64,000 bases of DNA, taken from NCBI GenBank assembly GCA_023213195.1, contig CP096135.1:2538842-2602841 (forward strand), in the 5' to 3' direction. The position numbers and the translations under genes are program-made. Numbering within the stretch: position 1 is the first letter of the stretch; each line of letters begins with the position of its first letter. The stretch comes from Sphingobacteriales bacterium JAD_PAG50586_3 (GTDB lineage Bacteria; Bacteroidota; Bacteroidia; CAMBQF01). Below the pieces are notes generated by a model. It was not told the DNA's origin and did not search any database. It saw nothing but the letters and a program-made list of their open reading frames with translations. Below are positions 51,269-63,253 of the stretch, piece by piece.

Positions 51269-51433
51269 GGCATAAAAATAGGGTATATTTTTGATTAAGG
51301 CCTTCTCACAGTCATGGTGAGCGTAGACCAATCATGCATAAACTAAACCTTATACCATCGTTCAACGTTAAGCGGTTGATAACTCCACAGCCACTGGTAA
51401 TATTCTACCCAACCGTTTCTGAAATTTGTAGGT

Positions 51434-54041
51434 ATGTTAACATGGCCGCGGCTGCGCAAGTGGCTTACACGCTTTTTCTTTTTTCATCGTTGCCCTTTGT
51501 AATTATTTACTTAGCGGCCAGCATTATTTTTATCTTTTTTAAAGATGATGTAAAAAGCTATTTGGTTGAAAAACTGAACGATGAACTGGTTACCGAGGTT
51601 AAGATTGAAGACATTGAGTTTTCGGTATTAAAGAAGTTTCCCTACGCCAGTGTAGAGCTGAAAAATGTATCGGCCGATGAGATTACCCCCAATCCGGTTA
51701 AAGAAAAGCTGTTTACCGCGGGCCGCATTTACTGCCTGTTCAACTGGTACGAGATGTTCAGCAGTAACTTCCATTTACGCAAAGTAGAGTTTGAAGACCT
51801 TACCCTTAACTTTAAGCGATTTGACGATGGTAGCGATAATTTCCATTTTTGGAAAGAGCAAAAAAGCACCGGCGAGCCTGCCAAATTCTCGTTAAACCTG
51901 CACAAGGTTAAGTTTAAAAATGTAGAGTTTAAGTATGTTGATAAAAGGAACAAAACCTTTTTAGGGTTGAATTTGCTGGAGGGGATGGTGTCGGGCAGCT
52001 TTGCCGATGAGCAGTACACCCTTACCGCCAAGGCTGCTTTAACGGCCGATGTGCTAACGTTTGGTGGTATTACCATTCCGCCAACGCCCGATGTGCGCAT
52101 TAGCTTTATTGCCGATGCCAACAACAAAACCAAAACCTATAATTTTCAAAACGCGCAACTGTTTTTAGGCAAGCTTAGCCTGCTTAGCAATGGGCAAATT
52201 ATAGCGGGCAAAGACCCATCGCTAAACCTTAATATTAAGGGCGATAAATTGGATGTAGCTTCTGTACTGTCGGCCCTGCCGCGGGAGTATGCATCGTTTG
52301 CCGATGATTATGCCAGTAAGGGATTGTTCTATTTAGATGGTAACATTGCCGGTCCGTTAGGTAAGCCTATTGCCAAGGCTAACTTTGGTATTAGCAGCGG
52401 TAACATAACCCACAAACCCAGCGGCACAGTTATGAGCAATGTAAACCTTAGTGGCTCATTTAACAGTGGCGAGGTGCTGCAAAAAGGAGAACTGGTGGTA
52501 AGCCGCATAAGCCTGCAACTTAAACAAGGCTCGCTGCGGGGCAGGTTTAAACTGGTAAACCTTATCAACCCTTACATATCAGCATCTGTTCAGGGTACTG
52601 CCGACTTGGGTGATATAAAGAATTTTATTCCCGGCACAGAAATAAAGCACATGGCAGGCAGCCTTATTGTTGATGCCGAAATTAAAGGTCCGCTTGGCGA
52701 TGTAGAAGCCCTTGCCGACGGTAATACCAACGCTGTGGCCAGTGGCCATGTAGAGGTGCGCAACGGCTCTGTAGAGCTTAGCAGCTTTGCCCACCGCATA
52801 GCCAAGGTTAATGCCAGGGCCAGCTTTGGTAACGATATTGTAGACCTTGACCAATGCGCTTTTAACATTGGCAAAAGCAATTTTAATTTGAACGGCAGGG
52901 TGCTTAGCTTCCCATCGTGCATACTAAACAGCAAGCAAAAAATACATATTGATGCATCGCTAGGCTCTAGCTACTGCGATATTGGGGAGCTGATTAAGAA
53001 ACCGATTGAAAACCCGTTAAAAGATACCGCTTCGGTTTTTCAACTGTCAGAAAGGTTGGAGAGTGAACTTACCATCAGGGCCGACAAGATTACCTTTAAC
53101 AAGTTTGGCGCACTAAACATGGTGGGCAATTTAAAGCTGTATAACAGGGTTATAGACCTGTCTGGCGTATCGCTGCAAACGGCGGGGGTAGTGTAAACCT
53201 AACCGCTAATATTGATGCCCGGGGCACAACCCGCATACGTACCGCCTGCGAGGCCAAGCTGAATAATATTGACATCCACTCGCTGTTTTATGAGTTTGAC
53301 GATTTTGGCCAAACTACCATGCAAAGCAAGCACCTTAAAGGCAGGCTTACAGCATCGGTAGCGTTTGCTGCCAACTGGACTAAGAAACTGGATATACTAC
53401 TGCCCAGTATAGAAGCCGAGAGCGATGTTAAACTGGAGAATGGAGAGTTGATAGACTTTGAGCCGATAACGGCCATGTCTAAATTTATTCAGGTTGATGA
53501 GTTAAAGCACATCTTTTTCTCTAACCTTAGCAACCACATCATAATCCGCAACAGCACTATACAAATACCTACTACCGAGATACAATCGAGTGCGCTAAAC
53601 CTTTCGGCATGGGGCACACACGATTTTGACAATAATATAGACTACCATGTGCGGGTTAACCTGCGTGAGTTGCTATCGAAGAAATTCATAAAAAATAAAA
53701 AACAACAGGTAGATGCCGATGGCGAAACTGTGCAAGACGATGGACGTGGTGGTTCTAACCTGTTTTTACTGGTTACCGGCACGGCTGATAACCCCAAAGT
53801 TAAGTACGATGTAGGAGCGGTTAAGAACAAGATTAAAGAAGATTTTAAGAAAGAGAAGTTTGTGCTAAAGGGTATATTGAAGAAGGAGTTTGGCAGTAAA
53901 GACGCGCAGCCCGACGGTACAGAAGATAACAGCACCCAGCCCAAAGAGGAGAAAACACCGCTGTTTGGTAAGAATAAAAAGAAGAAGGAGAAAAAGGGAA
54001 CCCAAACCAATGAGCCACAAATTGAGTGGAACGACAATTAG
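51434..54041 (+). CDS. AsmA-like envelope protein (frame broken at 53184-53188 and probably near 51475)
   Basis: About 865 residues. One N-terminal membrane helix (SSLPFVIIYLAASIIFIFF) is followed by the AsmA N-terminal pattern (VKSYLVEKLNDELVTEVKIE, then FPYASVELKNVSA) and a long beta-rich region. The first frame ends at 53196; a sixth G in the G5 run at 53184-53188 gives TAGGSVNLTANIDARGTT and leads to 54041. At the start, ATG 51434 (6 bases after GAAATTTG) reads MLTWPRLRKWLTRFFFF, a basic pre-helix segment that fits if one base is wrong in the T-runs near 51475. AsmA/YhdP-type proteins are thought to move phospholipids to the outer membrane. The C-terminus is very Lys-rich. Confidence 0.78.
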
Positions 54042-57470: not shown

Positions 57471-57818
57471 ATGAAGAATAAGCTGGATATTGTGCACCTT
57501 AAAACGTATATAAATGCGAATGATGCGTTGTTGAAAAAGCTGCTTACCTCTTTTGCTACCAATATACCACCGCAATTGCAAGAGCTTAAACAGTTTGCAA
57601 CAGAAAATAAACACCACGAAACAGCCGAAATGGCCCATAAACTTAAAACTCCTTTTTTATACTTTGGGTTGAATACGGTAGCTGCCAGGTTAGAGAATAT
57701 TGAACAGAATGTGGTGAGCCTGGATGGTGCTTTTGTGCTGGATGAGGTGGAGCGCATAATTCTTATTGCAAATGATTGTACAGAACAGGCACATCAGGAA
57801 ATAGAAAGACTATCTTAG
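57471..57818 (+). CDS. Hpt (histidine phosphotransfer) domain protein
   Basis: 115 residues; signature AEMAHKLKTPFLYFGLN with phospho-accepting His56, followed by a helix (AARLENIEQNVVSLD). The preceding DALLKKLLTSFATNIPPQL is the first Hpt helix. It is 6 bases upstream of a membrane hybrid kinase and most likely takes phosphate from that kinase's receiver. Unlike the Hpt protein at 18777 it has no extra C-terminal helix. Confidence 0.87.
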   Translation: MKNKLDIVHLKTYINANDALLKKLLTSFATNIPPQLQELKQFATENKHHETAEMAHKLKTPFLYFGLNTVAARLENIEQNVVSLDGAFVLDEVERIILIANDCTEQAHQEIERLS

Positions 57819-57824
57819 CCGTTA

Positions 57825-59919
57825 GTGAAAAGGTCGTATATAACACTTAAAGTAATTGCAGGTTTGTTGCTGCTAATGTCGGCAATTGCATTCTCATTAT
57901 ACCTGATAAATAAACAGTTAAAGGAACATTCGGGGTTGGTTAATAAAATTAACGACCCTAATATTTTTATTGATACCTGGGACAGGGTACTCTTTAAACT
58001 GGACAACGCCGGCGAAACTATTTACCGCTACAACACCACCGGAGACAGTACCGCCTTTGTTGAGTTTGATGCCGAACGTAAAGGGATTTACATTGTTATA
58101 GACAGCTTGGGCCAACTGGCAAATGCAAACGCCGAGCGTAAAATACTGGTAGACTCGTTATACAGTTTGGTTGATAAGCGCCTTGAATTGTATGTAATAA
58201 GGGCTTACACTATTAATGAGAATACCAATATGGCGGCCTTTGACGAGGCTACTAAAAAGGTGGTAGACAACGAGAACAGAACCATTGATAAAGATGTAAA
58301 AAGCGTTGCCGACGATCCGTCTAAGATAAATGCCATAAACACAGGCAAGCAAACTTTTTGGAAACGCATGTTTACCAAACGGAAGAAAACTAAAGATTCT
58401 GGTGGCGAAATGACCATTTTTGTGCCCGATACCATTAGCAAAAAAGAAGAAGCCAAACGGGTAAACAGGATTATAAATAACCTTAGGCAGGCTGAACTTA
58501 CGGTTAAAGAAGAAAATCAAAAGAAAATGTTGGGCCTTATTGCGCAAGAGCAATTTACCGATGGGCGGCTTTATACCCTTACCCGCCAAATGGAGCAGGC
58601 CGAAATTAATGCTACACAACAGCAAATACTTACCACCGCGGGCTCTTTAAATGATAGTACGCAGGATATTATGATTAAACTGGCAGCGGCAGGCGTTGTA
58701 TTTCTGCTGCTATTTGCTTTTTCATTCAGCGCGATGTTAACCGCAACTACAAGCTGCAAAAAGAACTAGACCTGGCCCGTATTAATGCCGAGCAACTTGC
58801 TAAGGCAAGAGAAGATTTTGCATCAAACATGAGCCACGAAATACGTACCCCGCTAAATGCCTTAGTAGGTTTTTCTGAACAGTTGGCAAATAGCAGGCTA
58901 GAGCAGCAGCAAACCACTATGGCCAATGCGCTGCTGCGCTCGTCTAAACACCTTTTAAGTGTTATAAACCCGGTGCTTGATTATAGTAAACTAATAGCTG
59001 GCAAGGCCGATTTAGAGCAGGTTGCTTTTACTATTGATGAGGTGCTGGAAGATGTAAAGCTGCTTTACGAAAAACAAGTAACAGATAAAGGCTTAAAATT
59101 TGTTTTTGAGCGCGATGCCACCGTGCCAAACAGGGTGGTAGGCGATGTGGTAAAACTACGCCAGGTGCTGTATAATTTGGTATCTAACGCTATTAAATTC
59201 ACCCAAAAGGGCAGTATAATTGTTAGCGCTAAACTTATAAGCAATGTTAGTGGTAAAGCCACTATAGAATTTGCGGTGAGCGATACCGGCATTGGCATAG
59301 CCCAGGATAAACTAGGCAGTGTTTTTGAAGAATTTACCCAAGCTGATAATAGCATCACCCGTAAATACGGCGGCACGGGGTTAGGGTTAAATATTGCCAA
59401 GCGCCTTATTGAGTTGCAGGGTGGAACCATTGAAGTGCTTAGCACCCCCGATGTTGGCAGTAGCTTTGTTGTAACCATTGGCTATGCTGTAGATACAGCG
59501 ACAGAGAAGGTTGCCGATACGATAAAAAAGACAGTACTACCTTGTTTAAGGGCAAAACCATTATTGTTTGCGATGATGAGGATATAAACCGAATGCTGGC
59601 TAACCATATATTAAGCGGCTACGGTGCTACGGTTTACGAAGCGGCATCTGCAGCAGAACTTATTAAGTATGTAGAAGACTTAGTGCCCGATTTGGTTCTA
59701 ACAGACCTTCACATGCCCGGTGTTGATGGTATTGAAGCCCTTTTGCAGGTGCGTAACAACCCGCGGCGCGAGGTATCCTCTGTGCCTTTTGTGGCCCTTA
59801 CAGGCAACGTAAAGCCCGGCGAAAAAGAGCGTTGTATTGAAATGGGTATGAATGGCTTTTTAGCCAAGCCTTTTATGGAAGCACAGCTAATAGAAGCTGT
59901 AACATTGGCACTTAAATAA
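57825..59919 (+). CDS. Membrane hybrid sensor histidine kinase (frame broken at 58738-58742 and 59524-59529)
   Basis: About 698 residues, GTG start. N-terminal helix (ITLKVIAGLLLLMSAIAFSL), a ~260-residue extracytoplasmic sensor that is mainly helical and not similar to a known sensor domain, a second helix (LAAAGVVFLLLFAFSF), then [17 protein letters not shown] (H-box), N-box YNLVSNAIKFTQKG, SDTGIGIAQDK and YGGTGLGLNIAKR, and a C-terminal receiver (TIIVCDDEDINR, LVLTDLHMPGVDG, FLAKPF). One more T at 58738-58742 gives FFIQRDVNRNYKL; one more A at 59524-59529 gives KKDSTTLFKGK. It forms a phosphorelay with the upstream Hpt gene. Confidence 0.86.
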
Positions 59920-60039
59920 ACATCCAACAATCGTTTAAATATAGCCTGCAGTAGGCTAAGTTTTACCACCTGTCGAACTGGGTGTAAGTAGCAAAATTTT
60001 TTATCGTTACACCTAGGGTAACCATAAGATAAAAGCGCT

Positions 60040-60423
60040 ATGAAAATCCTGTTGGCAGAAGACGATGTGTTTACCCTAACCATACTACAAGGGTATTTAG
60101 AAGAAAATGGCTACGATGTAGTTACTGTAACAAATGGCGGCGAAGCCTTAAATAAGCTGGAGAACGAGACAGGTTTTGATTTAATACTTTCAGATATTTT
60201 TATGCCGGTAGTTTCGGGTATAATGATGGGTAACCTGGTTAGGCAGTTCTACTTTTCTACCACACCGGTTATACTCTTTTCGGGCACAGATAATGCGGCA
60301 GTACGCAGGGCGGCAAATCTTGCCGGGGCCGATGGTTTTTTACCCAAACCTATATCAAAAGACAGGCTCCTGAAAACTATTTCCGACATTCAGAATAAAG
60401 GCCGCAGGCAAGCATCAAGTTAA
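60040..60423 (+). CDS. Single-domain response regulator
   Basis: 127 residues, receiver only: ILLAEDDVFTLTILQGYLEE, DLILSDIFMPVVSGIMMG (Asp about 53), VILFSGTD and FLPKPIS. It may be the target of the phosphorelay that precedes it and would act by protein contact. The gap of 120 bases to the kinase has no terminator. Confidence 0.87.
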   Translation: MKILLAEDDVFTLTILQGYLEENGYDVVTVTNGGEALNKLENETGFDLILSDIFMPVVSGIMMGNLVRQFYFSTTPVILFSGTDNAAVRRAANLAGADGFLPKPISKDRLLKTISDIQNKGRRQASS

Positions 60424-60516
60424 GGTAATATATTGATTATTAATTTAGAACCATTATTGCTTGCTTTTATAGCTATTGCCATATATTAGTTGTAATATGC
60501 ATCAAAATAATAAATA

Positions 60517-61214
60517 GTGCTCCATAACTGTTTAATTGTTGATGATAATGAGTTGTCTCAGTATGATTTAGAAAATAAATTATCATACTGGCCAGAGTTT
60601 AACTTACTTGGAAAAGTGGGTTCAACTACTGATGCTGCAGAATTTCTAAAAAATAAAAAAATAGATTTAATCTTCTTAGACCTCCATTTAGAGGGACTAC
60701 AGGAAAAACCGTTTATTAAAATATTAGAAGCAAATAAAACACAGGTTGTGTGGCTTTCGGGCAATAAAAACCATACTGACGATGCGTTGAATTATAACCT
60801 CACCGATATTCTGGTAAAGCCCTACACCGACAATCACTTTGTTAAAACAATGATTTTGGTGTTAAAACGCTTTAAATCGGCGTTTGAGATTGAAGCTAAA
60901 TTACCCCACTGTTTGTTTGTACGGTCTAACAAAATGTTAGTAAAGCTGCCGTATGCTGATATCCTTTATGTCGAGGCCCTTTCAGACTATGTAATAATCC
61001 ACACAAAGCCTAAAAAATATACTGTGCATTCTACTATGAAAGTGTTAGAAGATGTTTTACCTCCTTCTGATTTTTTCGTTCGCATAACTCCTACATTATT
61101 AGGCTTGATAAAATTAAAACAATAGAAGATAACAGCCTGATAATTGAATCGGCCGTGCTACCGGTAAGCAGGCAAAAAATAAAATCGCTAGTAGGCCGTT
61201 TGCAAACAGTATAA
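60517..61214 (+). CDS. LytTR-family response regulator, copy 1 (frame broken at 61071-61076)
   Basis: About 232 residues, GTG start. Receiver with CLIVDDNELSQYDLENKLSY, IDLIFLDLHLEGL and ILVKPYTDNHF, followed by a LytTR DNA-binding domain (YADILYVEALSDYVIIHTKP, KKYTVHSTMKVLEDVLP). The literal frame ends at 61125; a seventh T in the T6 run gives DFFRSHNSYIIRLDKI and a stop at 61212. LytTR regulators bind direct repeats in promoters; none was identified here. Closely similar to the copy at 62550. Confidence 0.87.
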
Positions 61215-61291
61215 AAAAGCACCACCGGGTGATTTGACATTTAATCTTAATTACCTTTTGTTTTTTTTATTATTGAATAAAATGAGTAAAA

Positions 61292-61780
61292 ATGAAGAAG
61301 GCCTGTTTTACTTTGTTAGTCTCTCTTATTGCATGCAACAGTAATTCTACTATTGATAAGGTTATTAAAGAGCATGACCAAACAGACTTTTCAATATTCA
61401 AAAACAAGTATATACACTTTAGAAGCGTTGGGCAAACAAGGGCCACATCAATATATTTTGTAGGAGTGGATAGTGTTGATTGCTCGCCTTATGGTGTAGA
61501 GGTTAACAATGCTAATGATAGTGTAATCTCTATAAATAATAAGTTGGTTATTAGTTCATGTGGTAAAGATTATATGACTAATGAAAACATAACCCAAATC
61601 ACTAAAGAATATTTGAAATATAACTTTGCTCTTATTAAGGTTGATAATTATGGTAATGTATTTATCAATCCGGACAAATTGAATGAAGAACCTAATGTAT
61701 TAAGGCATGTTCCTAGTACAATGCCTCTGCATTTTAATTCGTTTAAGCATTATAGTGGCAATTGGTATTTGCGCAACTAA
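61292..61780 (+). CDS. Small lipoprotein, family not recognised
   Basis: 162 residues. Lipobox VSLIAC with Cys at about residue 15, then NSNSTIDKVIKEHDQ. Two further cysteines (DCSPYG, SSCGKD) may form a disulphide. AT-rich. It lies between two LytTR regulator genes and is a candidate target of them. Function unknown. Confidence 0.7.
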   Translation: MKKACFTLLVSLIACNSNSTIDKVIKEHDQTDFSIFKNKYIHFRSVGQTRATSIYFVGVDSVDCSPYGVEVNNANDSVISINNKLVISSCGKDYMTNENITQITKEYLKYNFALIKVDNYGNVFINPDKLNEEPNVLRHVPSTMPLHFNSFKHYSGNWYLRN

Positions 61781-61818
61781 AAAGCACCACCGGTAAAACC
61801 AGCAGTGCTTTTCTTTTT
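61778..61818 (+). terminator. Rho-independent terminator
   Basis: AAAAGCAC / GTGCTTTT with an inner imperfect stem (ACCGGT / ACCAGC) and loop AAA, followed by CTTTTT. It begins at the stop codon of the lipoprotein gene. Confidence 0.7.
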
Positions 61819-61878
61819 GAAAGGGCTGTGCAGAGCAGCCCCGGCAGATAAGCCGTTTGTATTTTCTTAGTTTAACTA

Positions 61879-62400
61879 CTAAAACCTGTAGCGCACGCTA
61901 AATGCTGAGTTAAAAGTTCCTATTACATAATCGCGCGGGCCAAAATCAAGTCCCGGTTTTACATCAAAGCCAATATCAACAGGCGCTCCCGGTATGCGAT
62001 ATTCAATACCCATTATACCATCGGGGCCAAAGCTTGCCCTGCCGCCTTGTTCAACATATACATAATCAACCTTGCCATTATTTCGCCTGCGTGCAACCAC
62101 CCAACGGTCTAAAGTGCCTATATGCGCACCTACGCCTAAGTAGCCTTGTAGTCCGGGTACACCAAATGGCAAATGCCACTCATACAGGCCCGTAAATATC
62201 AGCCCGCGGTAGCCGGTATGCAACATAAGTTCCATGCCGCCATTGCCGCCAAAATAGTGTTTATAGGTAATGCCGGGGTCGCTACCTAAACGTATACCAA
62301 TGGCATTGCTGTTTTGAGAATAAATATTTGTAGTACATAGCATTAGCGCTATTGCTATTAAGCCATGCTTTAAATTGAAATTGCGTTCTCCCATCTTCAT
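61879..62400 (-). CDS. Outer-membrane beta-barrel-like protein
   Basis: 173 residues. Signal peptide to about 29 (LIAIALMLCTTNIYSQ). The mature part alternates polar and hydrophobic residues with Gly/Tyr/Trp-rich strands (GIRLGSDPGITYKHYFGGNG, GYRGLIFTGLYEWHLPFG) and ends in an aromatic residue (SVRYRF), the usual barrel-assembly signal. About eight strands would fit its size. Identity unknown. It faces the second LytTR gene, 149 bases away, with divergent orientation. Confidence 0.72.
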   Translation of the reverse strand: MKMGERNFNLKHGLIAIALMLCTTNIYSQNSNAIGIRLGSDPGITYKHYFGGNGGMELMLHTGYRGLIFTGLYEWHLPFGVPGLQGYLGVGAHIGTLDRWVVARRRNNGKVDYVYVEQGGRASFGPDGIMGIEYRIPGAPVDIGFDVKPGLDFGPRDYVIGTFNSAFSVRYRF

Positions 62401-62549
62401 AATTATGTGTTTTAAAGGTTTTATATTTACAATCGCAAAGGTGCTGTGTTTGTTTGCGTTAGCGGGTTGTTTTCGACAAAGGGTAACTTTCTTTCGATAT
62501 TTTGCTTCTTATCGGCGATTTTTCCCGTAATTAGCAGCTTGATAACGTT

Positions 62550-63253
62550 TTGCCCACTATGGAACTAAGGTGCTTAGTTGTTGATGATGATGAATTTGTG
62601 CGGATTGATTTGGAGAGCAAGCTTTCTCATTGGACCGAGGTAAGCATTGTTGCCCTATGTCCATCAGCAATAGATGCTATGCGCATTTTGGAAGAAGAAA
62701 AGATTGACCTAATCTTTTTAGACATCCACATGCCGGGCATGACAGGTTTTCAGTTTATCAAATCGTTAGAGCTTAATAAAACACAGGTAGTATTGGTTAC
62801 AGGTAACAAAGAGCATGCTGTTGATGCCTTTGAATATGATGTAACCGACTTTTTGGTAAAACCATTTACCGACGACCGCTTTGTAAAAACCATGCTTAAA
62901 GTGCTTAAACGTGCTAAGCAGGCAGGCCCGGCCGATAAGCAAAGCGACCATCTTTTTATTAAGGTGAACAAAATTCTAGAGAAGATTAAGTACACCGATA
63001 TATTGTATATTGAAGCTTTGGCTGATTATGTACAAATACAAACGGGTGCTAAAAAATACACTATACATTCTACTATGAAAGGCATGGAAGAATCGCTACC
63101 AAGGCCGATTTTTTCCGTACCCATAATTCATATATTGTTAGGCTTGATAAGATTACACGCATAGAAGATAACCTGCTTATTATAGACGATGTAACTATAC
63201 CTGTTAGTCGCAACAAGGTTAAACCCCTAATGCAGCGTTTAAACACCATTTAG
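62550..63253 (+). CDS. LytTR-family response regulator, copy 2 (frame broken near 63101)
   Basis: About 235 residues. Receiver: CLVVDDDEFVRIDLESKLSH, IDLIFLDIHMPGMTGFQF and DFLVKPFTDDRFVKTMLKVL; LytTR domain: YTDILYIEALADYVQIQTGA and KKYTIHSTMKGMEESLP. The literal frame ends at 63163; one more A at 63101-63102 (CTACCAAAGG) gives KADFFRTHNSYIVRLDKI and a stop at 63251. It is a paralog of the regulator at 60517, with most domain-defining stretches shared. A kinase partner is not adjacent. Confidence 0.87.

Follow-up and report, generated by a model that had tools for sequence, protein, structure and literature searches.

A predicted multistep phosphorelay locus with a candidate LytTR operator in a Sphingobacteriales genome

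The locus described here raises the question of whether its signalling genes form a single pathway, and on which DNA such a pathway would end. It lies at positions 57471-63253 of a stretch of 64,000 nucleotides (the window) from Sphingobacteriales bacterium JAD_PAG50586_3, part of a single-contig genome of 4.16 Mb that is 94.5% complete. It comprises, in order, genes for a phosphotransfer protein (Hpt), a hybrid histidine kinase, a CheY-like receiver, a first LytTR regulator (LytTR1), a lipoprotein, a small outer-membrane protein (OMP, on the minus strand) and a second LytTR regulator (LytTR2), followed by pth. The parts are of known kinds, and the gene set and a paired DNA motif recur together in related bacteria. 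Judging from sequence comparisons, it is likely that the locus encodes a multistep His-Asp phosphorelay in which LytTR2 acts at a direct repeat of 21-bp period, and that the frame breaks in three of its genes are assembly indels. LytTR2 probably controls both itself and the neighbouring OMP through this motif.

Gene set and sensor domain

The Hpt protein (57471-57818, plus strand, 115 residues) possessed an AHKLKT motif recognised by eye, matched the Pfam Hpt family at 26.9 bits (cut-off 24.6; 5.8e-06) and is conserved in G001, one of two genomes of the same genus used for comparison (G001 and G002). In the membrane hybrid kinase (57825-59919, plus strand), Pfam placed HisKA, HATPase and REC across three reading frames, while the G001 orthologue carried HisKA, HATPase_c and REC intact in one membrane kinase. 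Response_reg domains were found in the CheY-like stand-alone receiver (60040-60423, plus strand; 2.9e-23), in LytTR1 (60517-61214, plus strand) and in LytTR2 (62559-63253, plus strand), the last being the orthologue of the LytTR gene at the same place in G001 and G002. The Pfam matches to the LytTR domain were split, its in-frame halves scoring 36.9 and 31.4 bits (cut-off 22.6), and the whole domain was present in G001 and G002. Identity between LytTR1 and LytTR2 was 55% for the receiver and 61-64% for the LytTR domain, which agrees with the earlier claim that they are alike over most of their length. The OMP-like protein (61879-62400, minus strand, 173 residues, leader by eye) matched no Pfam family. 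A plasmid collection was also searched, without a match.

An earlier reading of the sequence alone (the sequence-only reading) had described this cluster as a phosphorelay with envelope cargo. All seven genes were recovered, by Pfam domains or, for the lipoprotein and the OMP, by eye, and the domains together with recurring gene sets in other families support the phosphorelay. As cargo, the OMP holds up, being divergent from a LytTR gene in the window and in two other genomes (G192 and G110) with an operator-like repeat in that promoter in the window and G192; the lipoprotein does not, as it had relatives in 0 of 98 other genomes and no operator upstream. The same reading missed that the kinase and both LytTR genes are frame-broken. 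It also suggested that the two LytTR paralogues may compete for shared sites; their DNA-binding domains are similar, but no operator was found upstream of LytTR1. Its own counter-hypothesis, that the LytTR genes belong to LytS kinases elsewhere, is contradicted by the positions of the PF06580 (LytS-type) kinases. The genome has three, at 785011, 1727012 and 1730445, all no more than about 5 kb away from its two further LytTR genes and far from the phosphorelay locus at 2.60 Mb, and no PF06580 kinase neighbours the LytTR genes of the window.

The kinase is laid out as a transmembrane segment, a helical sensor, a second transmembrane segment (both by eye), HisKA, HATPase and REC. The sensor had been called unrecognised, and this stands in Pfam for the window protein, as neither the window kinase nor that of G001 matched CHASE3 (PF05227, cut-off 28 bits); it fails for the kinase of a related locus in G354, which passed at 29.3 bits, with L033, G192 and G110 at 22.7, 18.5 and 14.8 bits. 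A profile of the window sensor aligned over its length with those of G354 and G192 at 97% probability, from very shallow alignments. An AlphaFold model, a check proposed with the sequence-only reading, was built from three sequences and was all-helical at a low-confidence mean pLDDT of 57.6; a Foldseek search with it found nothing in the PDB at E<=0.001. The sensor of the window kinase is probably CHASE3-like.

Paired motif and gene set in related bacteria

The half-site was found by eye when the divergent OMP-LytTR promoters of the window and G192 were compared, and was searched for as pairs of TTTCGAYA. Such a pair, at a spacing of 20-22 and with at most one mismatch, occurred once in the window, as the exact copy TTTCGACA-N13-TTTCGATA at 62471-62499 (plus strand, 21-bp period), and in none of 20 shuffles. 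This candidate operator lies in the promoter between the divergent OMP and LytTR2 genes, 60 nt upstream of LytTR2 and 71 nt upstream of the OMP. For the site in G192, the distances to the counterparts of these genes are 51 and 68 nt. None was found before LytTR1, CheY, Hpt, the lipoprotein or pth in the window, so that among the regions where LytTR-type repeats had been suspected, only the OMP-LytTR2 promoter possessed one, and those of the lipoprotein and pth did not. In the 1.68 Mb of the genome that was scanned (about 40%), the copy at 62471 was the only exact one. The sole copy with one mismatch in the same 1.68 Mb (L244 2024-2052; G000:C1:82024) stands 62 nt before a gene for an ECF-type sigma factor (2114-2617).

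The geometry fits LytTR sites tested by others, which, in the available text of PMC6193735, consist of direct repeats with, in most cases, 12 bp between them, upstream of the -35 element; a 9-bp repeat plus 12 bp gives the same 21-bp period, and repeats about 12 bp apart upstream of a regulator gene are what 62471-62499 presents. The half-site TTTCGATA itself does not match the classical LytTR consensus.

To place the locus among its relatives, LytTR proteins were ranked in 395 genomes of the class, the best 20 loci after those of the genus and of G110 were fetched, and neighbouring genes were scored with profiles made in this analysis. The G110 locus itself was found via its sensor. The LytTR proteins of the window fell in a clade of 11 rows (support 97/96). 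G192 possessed a minus-strand OMP gene divergent from LytTR-Hpt-kinase-CheY, and G110 the same divergent pair followed by Hpt-kinase-CheY. LytTR-Hpt-kinase-CheY was also found in G354, with no OMP in the stretch seen, and G142 encoded a kinase with Hpt, two LytTR and a CheY-like protein. G127 had LytTR, OMP, a receiver and a CheY-like gene on a short contig on which no kinase was seen; G316 had LytTR, a second LytTR-domain gene and a receiver; and G188 had LytTR alone, with no OMP in the stretch seen. G019 possessed OMP-kinase-CheY-LytTR, its LytTR falling outside the window clade. Across the 10 genomes of the clade, including the window, G001 and G002, a CheY-like receiver was present in 6 and the OMP in 4. 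Both are probably ancestral to the module, because other families show the fuller set (G192, G110).

More distant named LytTR loci looked different: the OMP was present in 0 of 78, and a free-standing receiver within 5 kb likewise in 0 of 78 (the sole positive of 81 being G110). A kinase lay within 1 kb of a LytTR gene in 37 of these 78; it was a hybrid in 17 cases and shared the strand of the LytTR gene in 10. A hybrid kinase next to a LytTR regulator is therefore no rarity. Sensor orthologues were strong in one of 12 genomes of the family of G110 (G110 itself) and weak in two. As a separate observation, one minus-strand run in G007 (L150 5067-12201) encodes a haem-NO-binding protein (Pfam HNOB), a hybrid kinase, a LytTR regulator and several receivers.

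Candidate operators preceded LytTR in G192, G127 and G188 and Hpt in G192 and G354, and two lay beside LytTR-domain genes in G316; all five genomes belong to the window LytTR clade. With at most one mismatch, none occurred in 1.17 Mb around the 78 distant LytTR loci or in 0.38 Mb around OMP relatives. In the best 20 loci, four pairs with at most one mismatch had a spacing of 21 against one at any other spacing, and with at most two mismatches 11 had this spacing, compared with 0-7 for any of the other spacings between 12 and 39, both counts including the G192 site used for motif discovery. The remaining pairs at spacing 21 come from loci that do not belong to the clade, namely L226 with two, L227 and L228; that of L228 falls inside a LytTR reading frame and one of L226 inside a kinase frame, the others more than 2 kb from LytTR genes.

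Several observations weigh against this operator and its link to the OMP. The divergent-promoter sites of the window and G192 are not independent, as the half-site was derived from both. At up to two mismatches, the 78 distant loci gave 15 pairs against 2-5 in shuffles (OMP loci: 3 against 0-2), and several multiple-of-three spacings were raised too, as expected from coding phase; weak sites therefore cannot be counted, and the spacing excess at this threshold was rejected as evidence because of its confounding by codon phase. G110 carries the module with no operator at up to two mismatches, and only degenerate sites were found in G001 (spacing 20), G002 (spacing 19) and G142 (three mismatches). 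The distance from site to putative start varies from 8 nt (G188) to 105 nt (G127). Across seven intergenic regions, the classical LytTR half-site consensus gave no pair at up to one mismatch and one at up to two (P 0.23), without clear excess. Finally, the OMP family is generic: relatives occurred in 30 of 98 other genomes, and a LytTR regulator in 1 of 36 stretches around such relatives, some of which stop at contig ends, so the OMP was rejected as a general LytTR partner.

The last point bears on whether the OMP is a bystander of a real relay, the repeat serving LytTR2 autoregulation only. Autoregulation through such repeats is known from the available text of PMC6193735, OMP relatives mostly do not lie near LytTR genes, G001 and G002 keep LytTR2 without the OMP, and G188 and G354 have the repeat with no OMP seen. 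Against this, the OMP and LytTR genes are divergently arranged in the window and in both G192 and G110 and lie close together in G127, and the OMP is absent from all 78 distant loci. We regard the bystander role as possible but rather doubtful, and retain control of both LytTR2 and the OMP as the probable arrangement.

A weight-matrix regulon, built without the window site and run on the same 1.68 Mb, gave 24 matches above a score of 14 against 12 and 7 in two shuffles, with the window site tenth, and was not used. No paper was found containing the operator words, a negative of little weight because papers seldom print such words on their own, and no report of LytTR operators in Bacteroidota was found in the open-access literature.

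Frame breaks, paralogue and lipoprotein gene

The window kinase reads in three frames (about 57825-58721, 58715-59545 and 59521-59919), with single-base breaks near 58724 and 59500. In LytTR1 and LytTR2 the frame is interrupted once each within the LytTR domain, near 61071-61077 and 63102, so that neither the kinase nor a LytTR gene is readable in one piece in the window. In the same-genus genomes these genes are intact (kinase of 701 residues in G001 and 702 in G002; LytTR of 233 in both), and alignment to them showed one base missing at two kinase sites and one LytTR2 site. Elsewhere in the same assembly, rpoB (G000:C1:3522218-3526006) reads in two frames with two breaks, sprA shows five frame changes and a neighbouring exonuclease gene one, with indels of both signs, while pth, a PlsB-like gene and Hpt are unbroken. 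In total, about 19 kb of coding sequence held 12 breaks (kinase 2, LytTR1 1, LytTR2 1, exonuclease 1, sprA 5, rpoB 2). Because the same-genus orthologues are intact, rpoB and sprA are also broken, and a cell with an rpoB so disrupted would not be viable, assembly indels are the best reading. The genome was presumably made from long reads, as it is one contig, and indel errors are described for long-read single-contig genomes in the available text of PMC8103633. Split genes of this assembly should thus not be taken as biology. An AsmA-family gene at 51334-54041 of the window also appears split (51334-53196 and 53319-54041, with a Pfam match on the first piece alone).

Two biological explanations were weighed. 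True pseudogenes in a relay decaying in this lineage would account for four frame breaks across three genes and for the long LytTR1 branch described below, but rpoB and sprA are equally affected, LytTR2 is 83% identical to its G001 orthologue before the break and 88% after, and the operator is exact here while degenerate in G001 and G002; decay is accordingly improbable. Programmed -1 frameshifting at T-runs, yielding short and long regulators, could be suggested by the position of both LytTR breaks near a T6 run and the same shift direction required. It is hardly credible, however, given that the G001 and G002 orthologues are open throughout this stretch, that among the matches listed one LytTR outside this genome had an internal stop (G125) and one was partial (G325), that the LytTR2 gap aligns upstream of the T-run, and that other parts of the assembly show indels of both signs. 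Assembly error remains the preferred explanation.

The same-genus loci are simpler. G001 possessed Hpt, kinase, one LytTR and then pth. In G002 this order was also seen for kinase, LytTR and pth, on a contig that ends before Hpt. CheY, LytTR1, lipoprotein and OMP were absent from the corresponding place in both; elsewhere in these genomes the OMP and lipoprotein had no match, no second LytTR of this kind was found, and the closest CheY-type matches were receivers at 37% identity or less. The four genes were considered as one recent island, which was dropped because G192 and G110 carry CheY and OMP in the same set. LytTR2 is 84% identical to its G001 orthologue over the in-frame part. LytTR1 joins the LytTR proteins of the genus with a support of 100/98, its branch being about 8-10 times longer (1.04-1.09 versus 0.10-0.14), and is by this measure a fast-evolving paralogue. 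Tandem LytTR pairs behind a hybrid kinase with Hpt were also seen in two other genomes (L222 6926-8351 and L229 6626-8251). The two G142 LytTR proteins are far apart in the tree and thus did not arise by recent duplication.

The lipoprotein-like gene (61292-61780, plus strand, lipobox-like leader by eye) has the lowest G+C of the cluster (0.319). The short repeat noted earlier was confirmed as AAAAAGCACCACCGG at 61214 and 61779; the 4.16 Mb genome has no other exact copy, and one further copy with a mismatch. The copies (61214-61228 and 61779-61793) overlap or follow the stop codons of LytTR1, read in its continuing frame, and of the lipoprotein gene. The second forms one arm of a hairpin (61780-61812, minus strand) situated where the lipoprotein and OMP genes converge, and the first is without a second arm. 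The minus-strand fold of 61770-61830 has an energy of -21.7 kcal/mol, and the hairpin is not the minimum-energy fold of the plus strand. It looks like an OMP terminator, although a consensus terminator scan did not list it and its T-run lies inside the stem. The orphan lipoprotein gene, with its low G+C, may have entered at this terminator, leaving a short duplication behind.

Proposed pathway and known systems

In the proposed pathway, the hybrid kinase would sense an envelope or periplasmic cue through its CHASE3-like helical domain and autophosphorylate. Phosphate would then pass to its own receiver, to the separate Hpt and to the receiver of LytTR2, which would bind the 21-bp-period direct repeat between the OMP and LytTR2 genes and regulate itself and probably the OMP, activation being a guess. 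The CheY-like protein and LytTR1 may serve as additional phosphate acceptors, as a sink or a second output. More tentatively, a distinct Bacteroidota LytTR clade with its own operator, TTTCGAYA-N13-TTTCGAYA, may run a module for envelope sensing whose composition varies (CHASE3-like hybrid kinase, Hpt, CheY, LytTR and small OMP), in this genome also controlling the ECF-type sigma factor. An operator tied at the sequence level to one regulator clade and gene set would offer a direct route to the regulon of an orphan phosphorelay.

Phosphorelays of the ArcB/BarA/LuxQ-LuxU type share with this locus the HisKA-HATPase-REC kinase, Hpt and response regulator. The G001 kinase scored best against the BarA, LuxQ and TorS models, below the cut-off of all models among the matches listed (25 of 149). 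Unlike these systems, the window locus has a separate Hpt, a CHASE3-like sensor, a LytTR output, an extra CheY-like receiver and the OMP. LytS/LytTR systems (AgrA, BtsR, YpdB) share the REC-LytTR regulator and a direct-repeat operator of about two helical turns, BtsR being the best NCBIfam relative of the regulator (112 bits, cut-off 246). They differ in their PF06580 kinase, where the window regulator is partnered by a HisKA hybrid kinase and Hpt, and in their half-site, the candidate TTTCGATA departing from the classical consensus. The LytTR Regulatory Systems HdrRM and BrsRM, as far as the available text of PMC6193735 describes them, have a membrane-inhibitor partner, of which none was recognised in the window, where a phosphorelay kinase is found instead, but they resemble the locus in the direct repeat upstream of the regulator gene, in its spacing and in its divergence from consensus.

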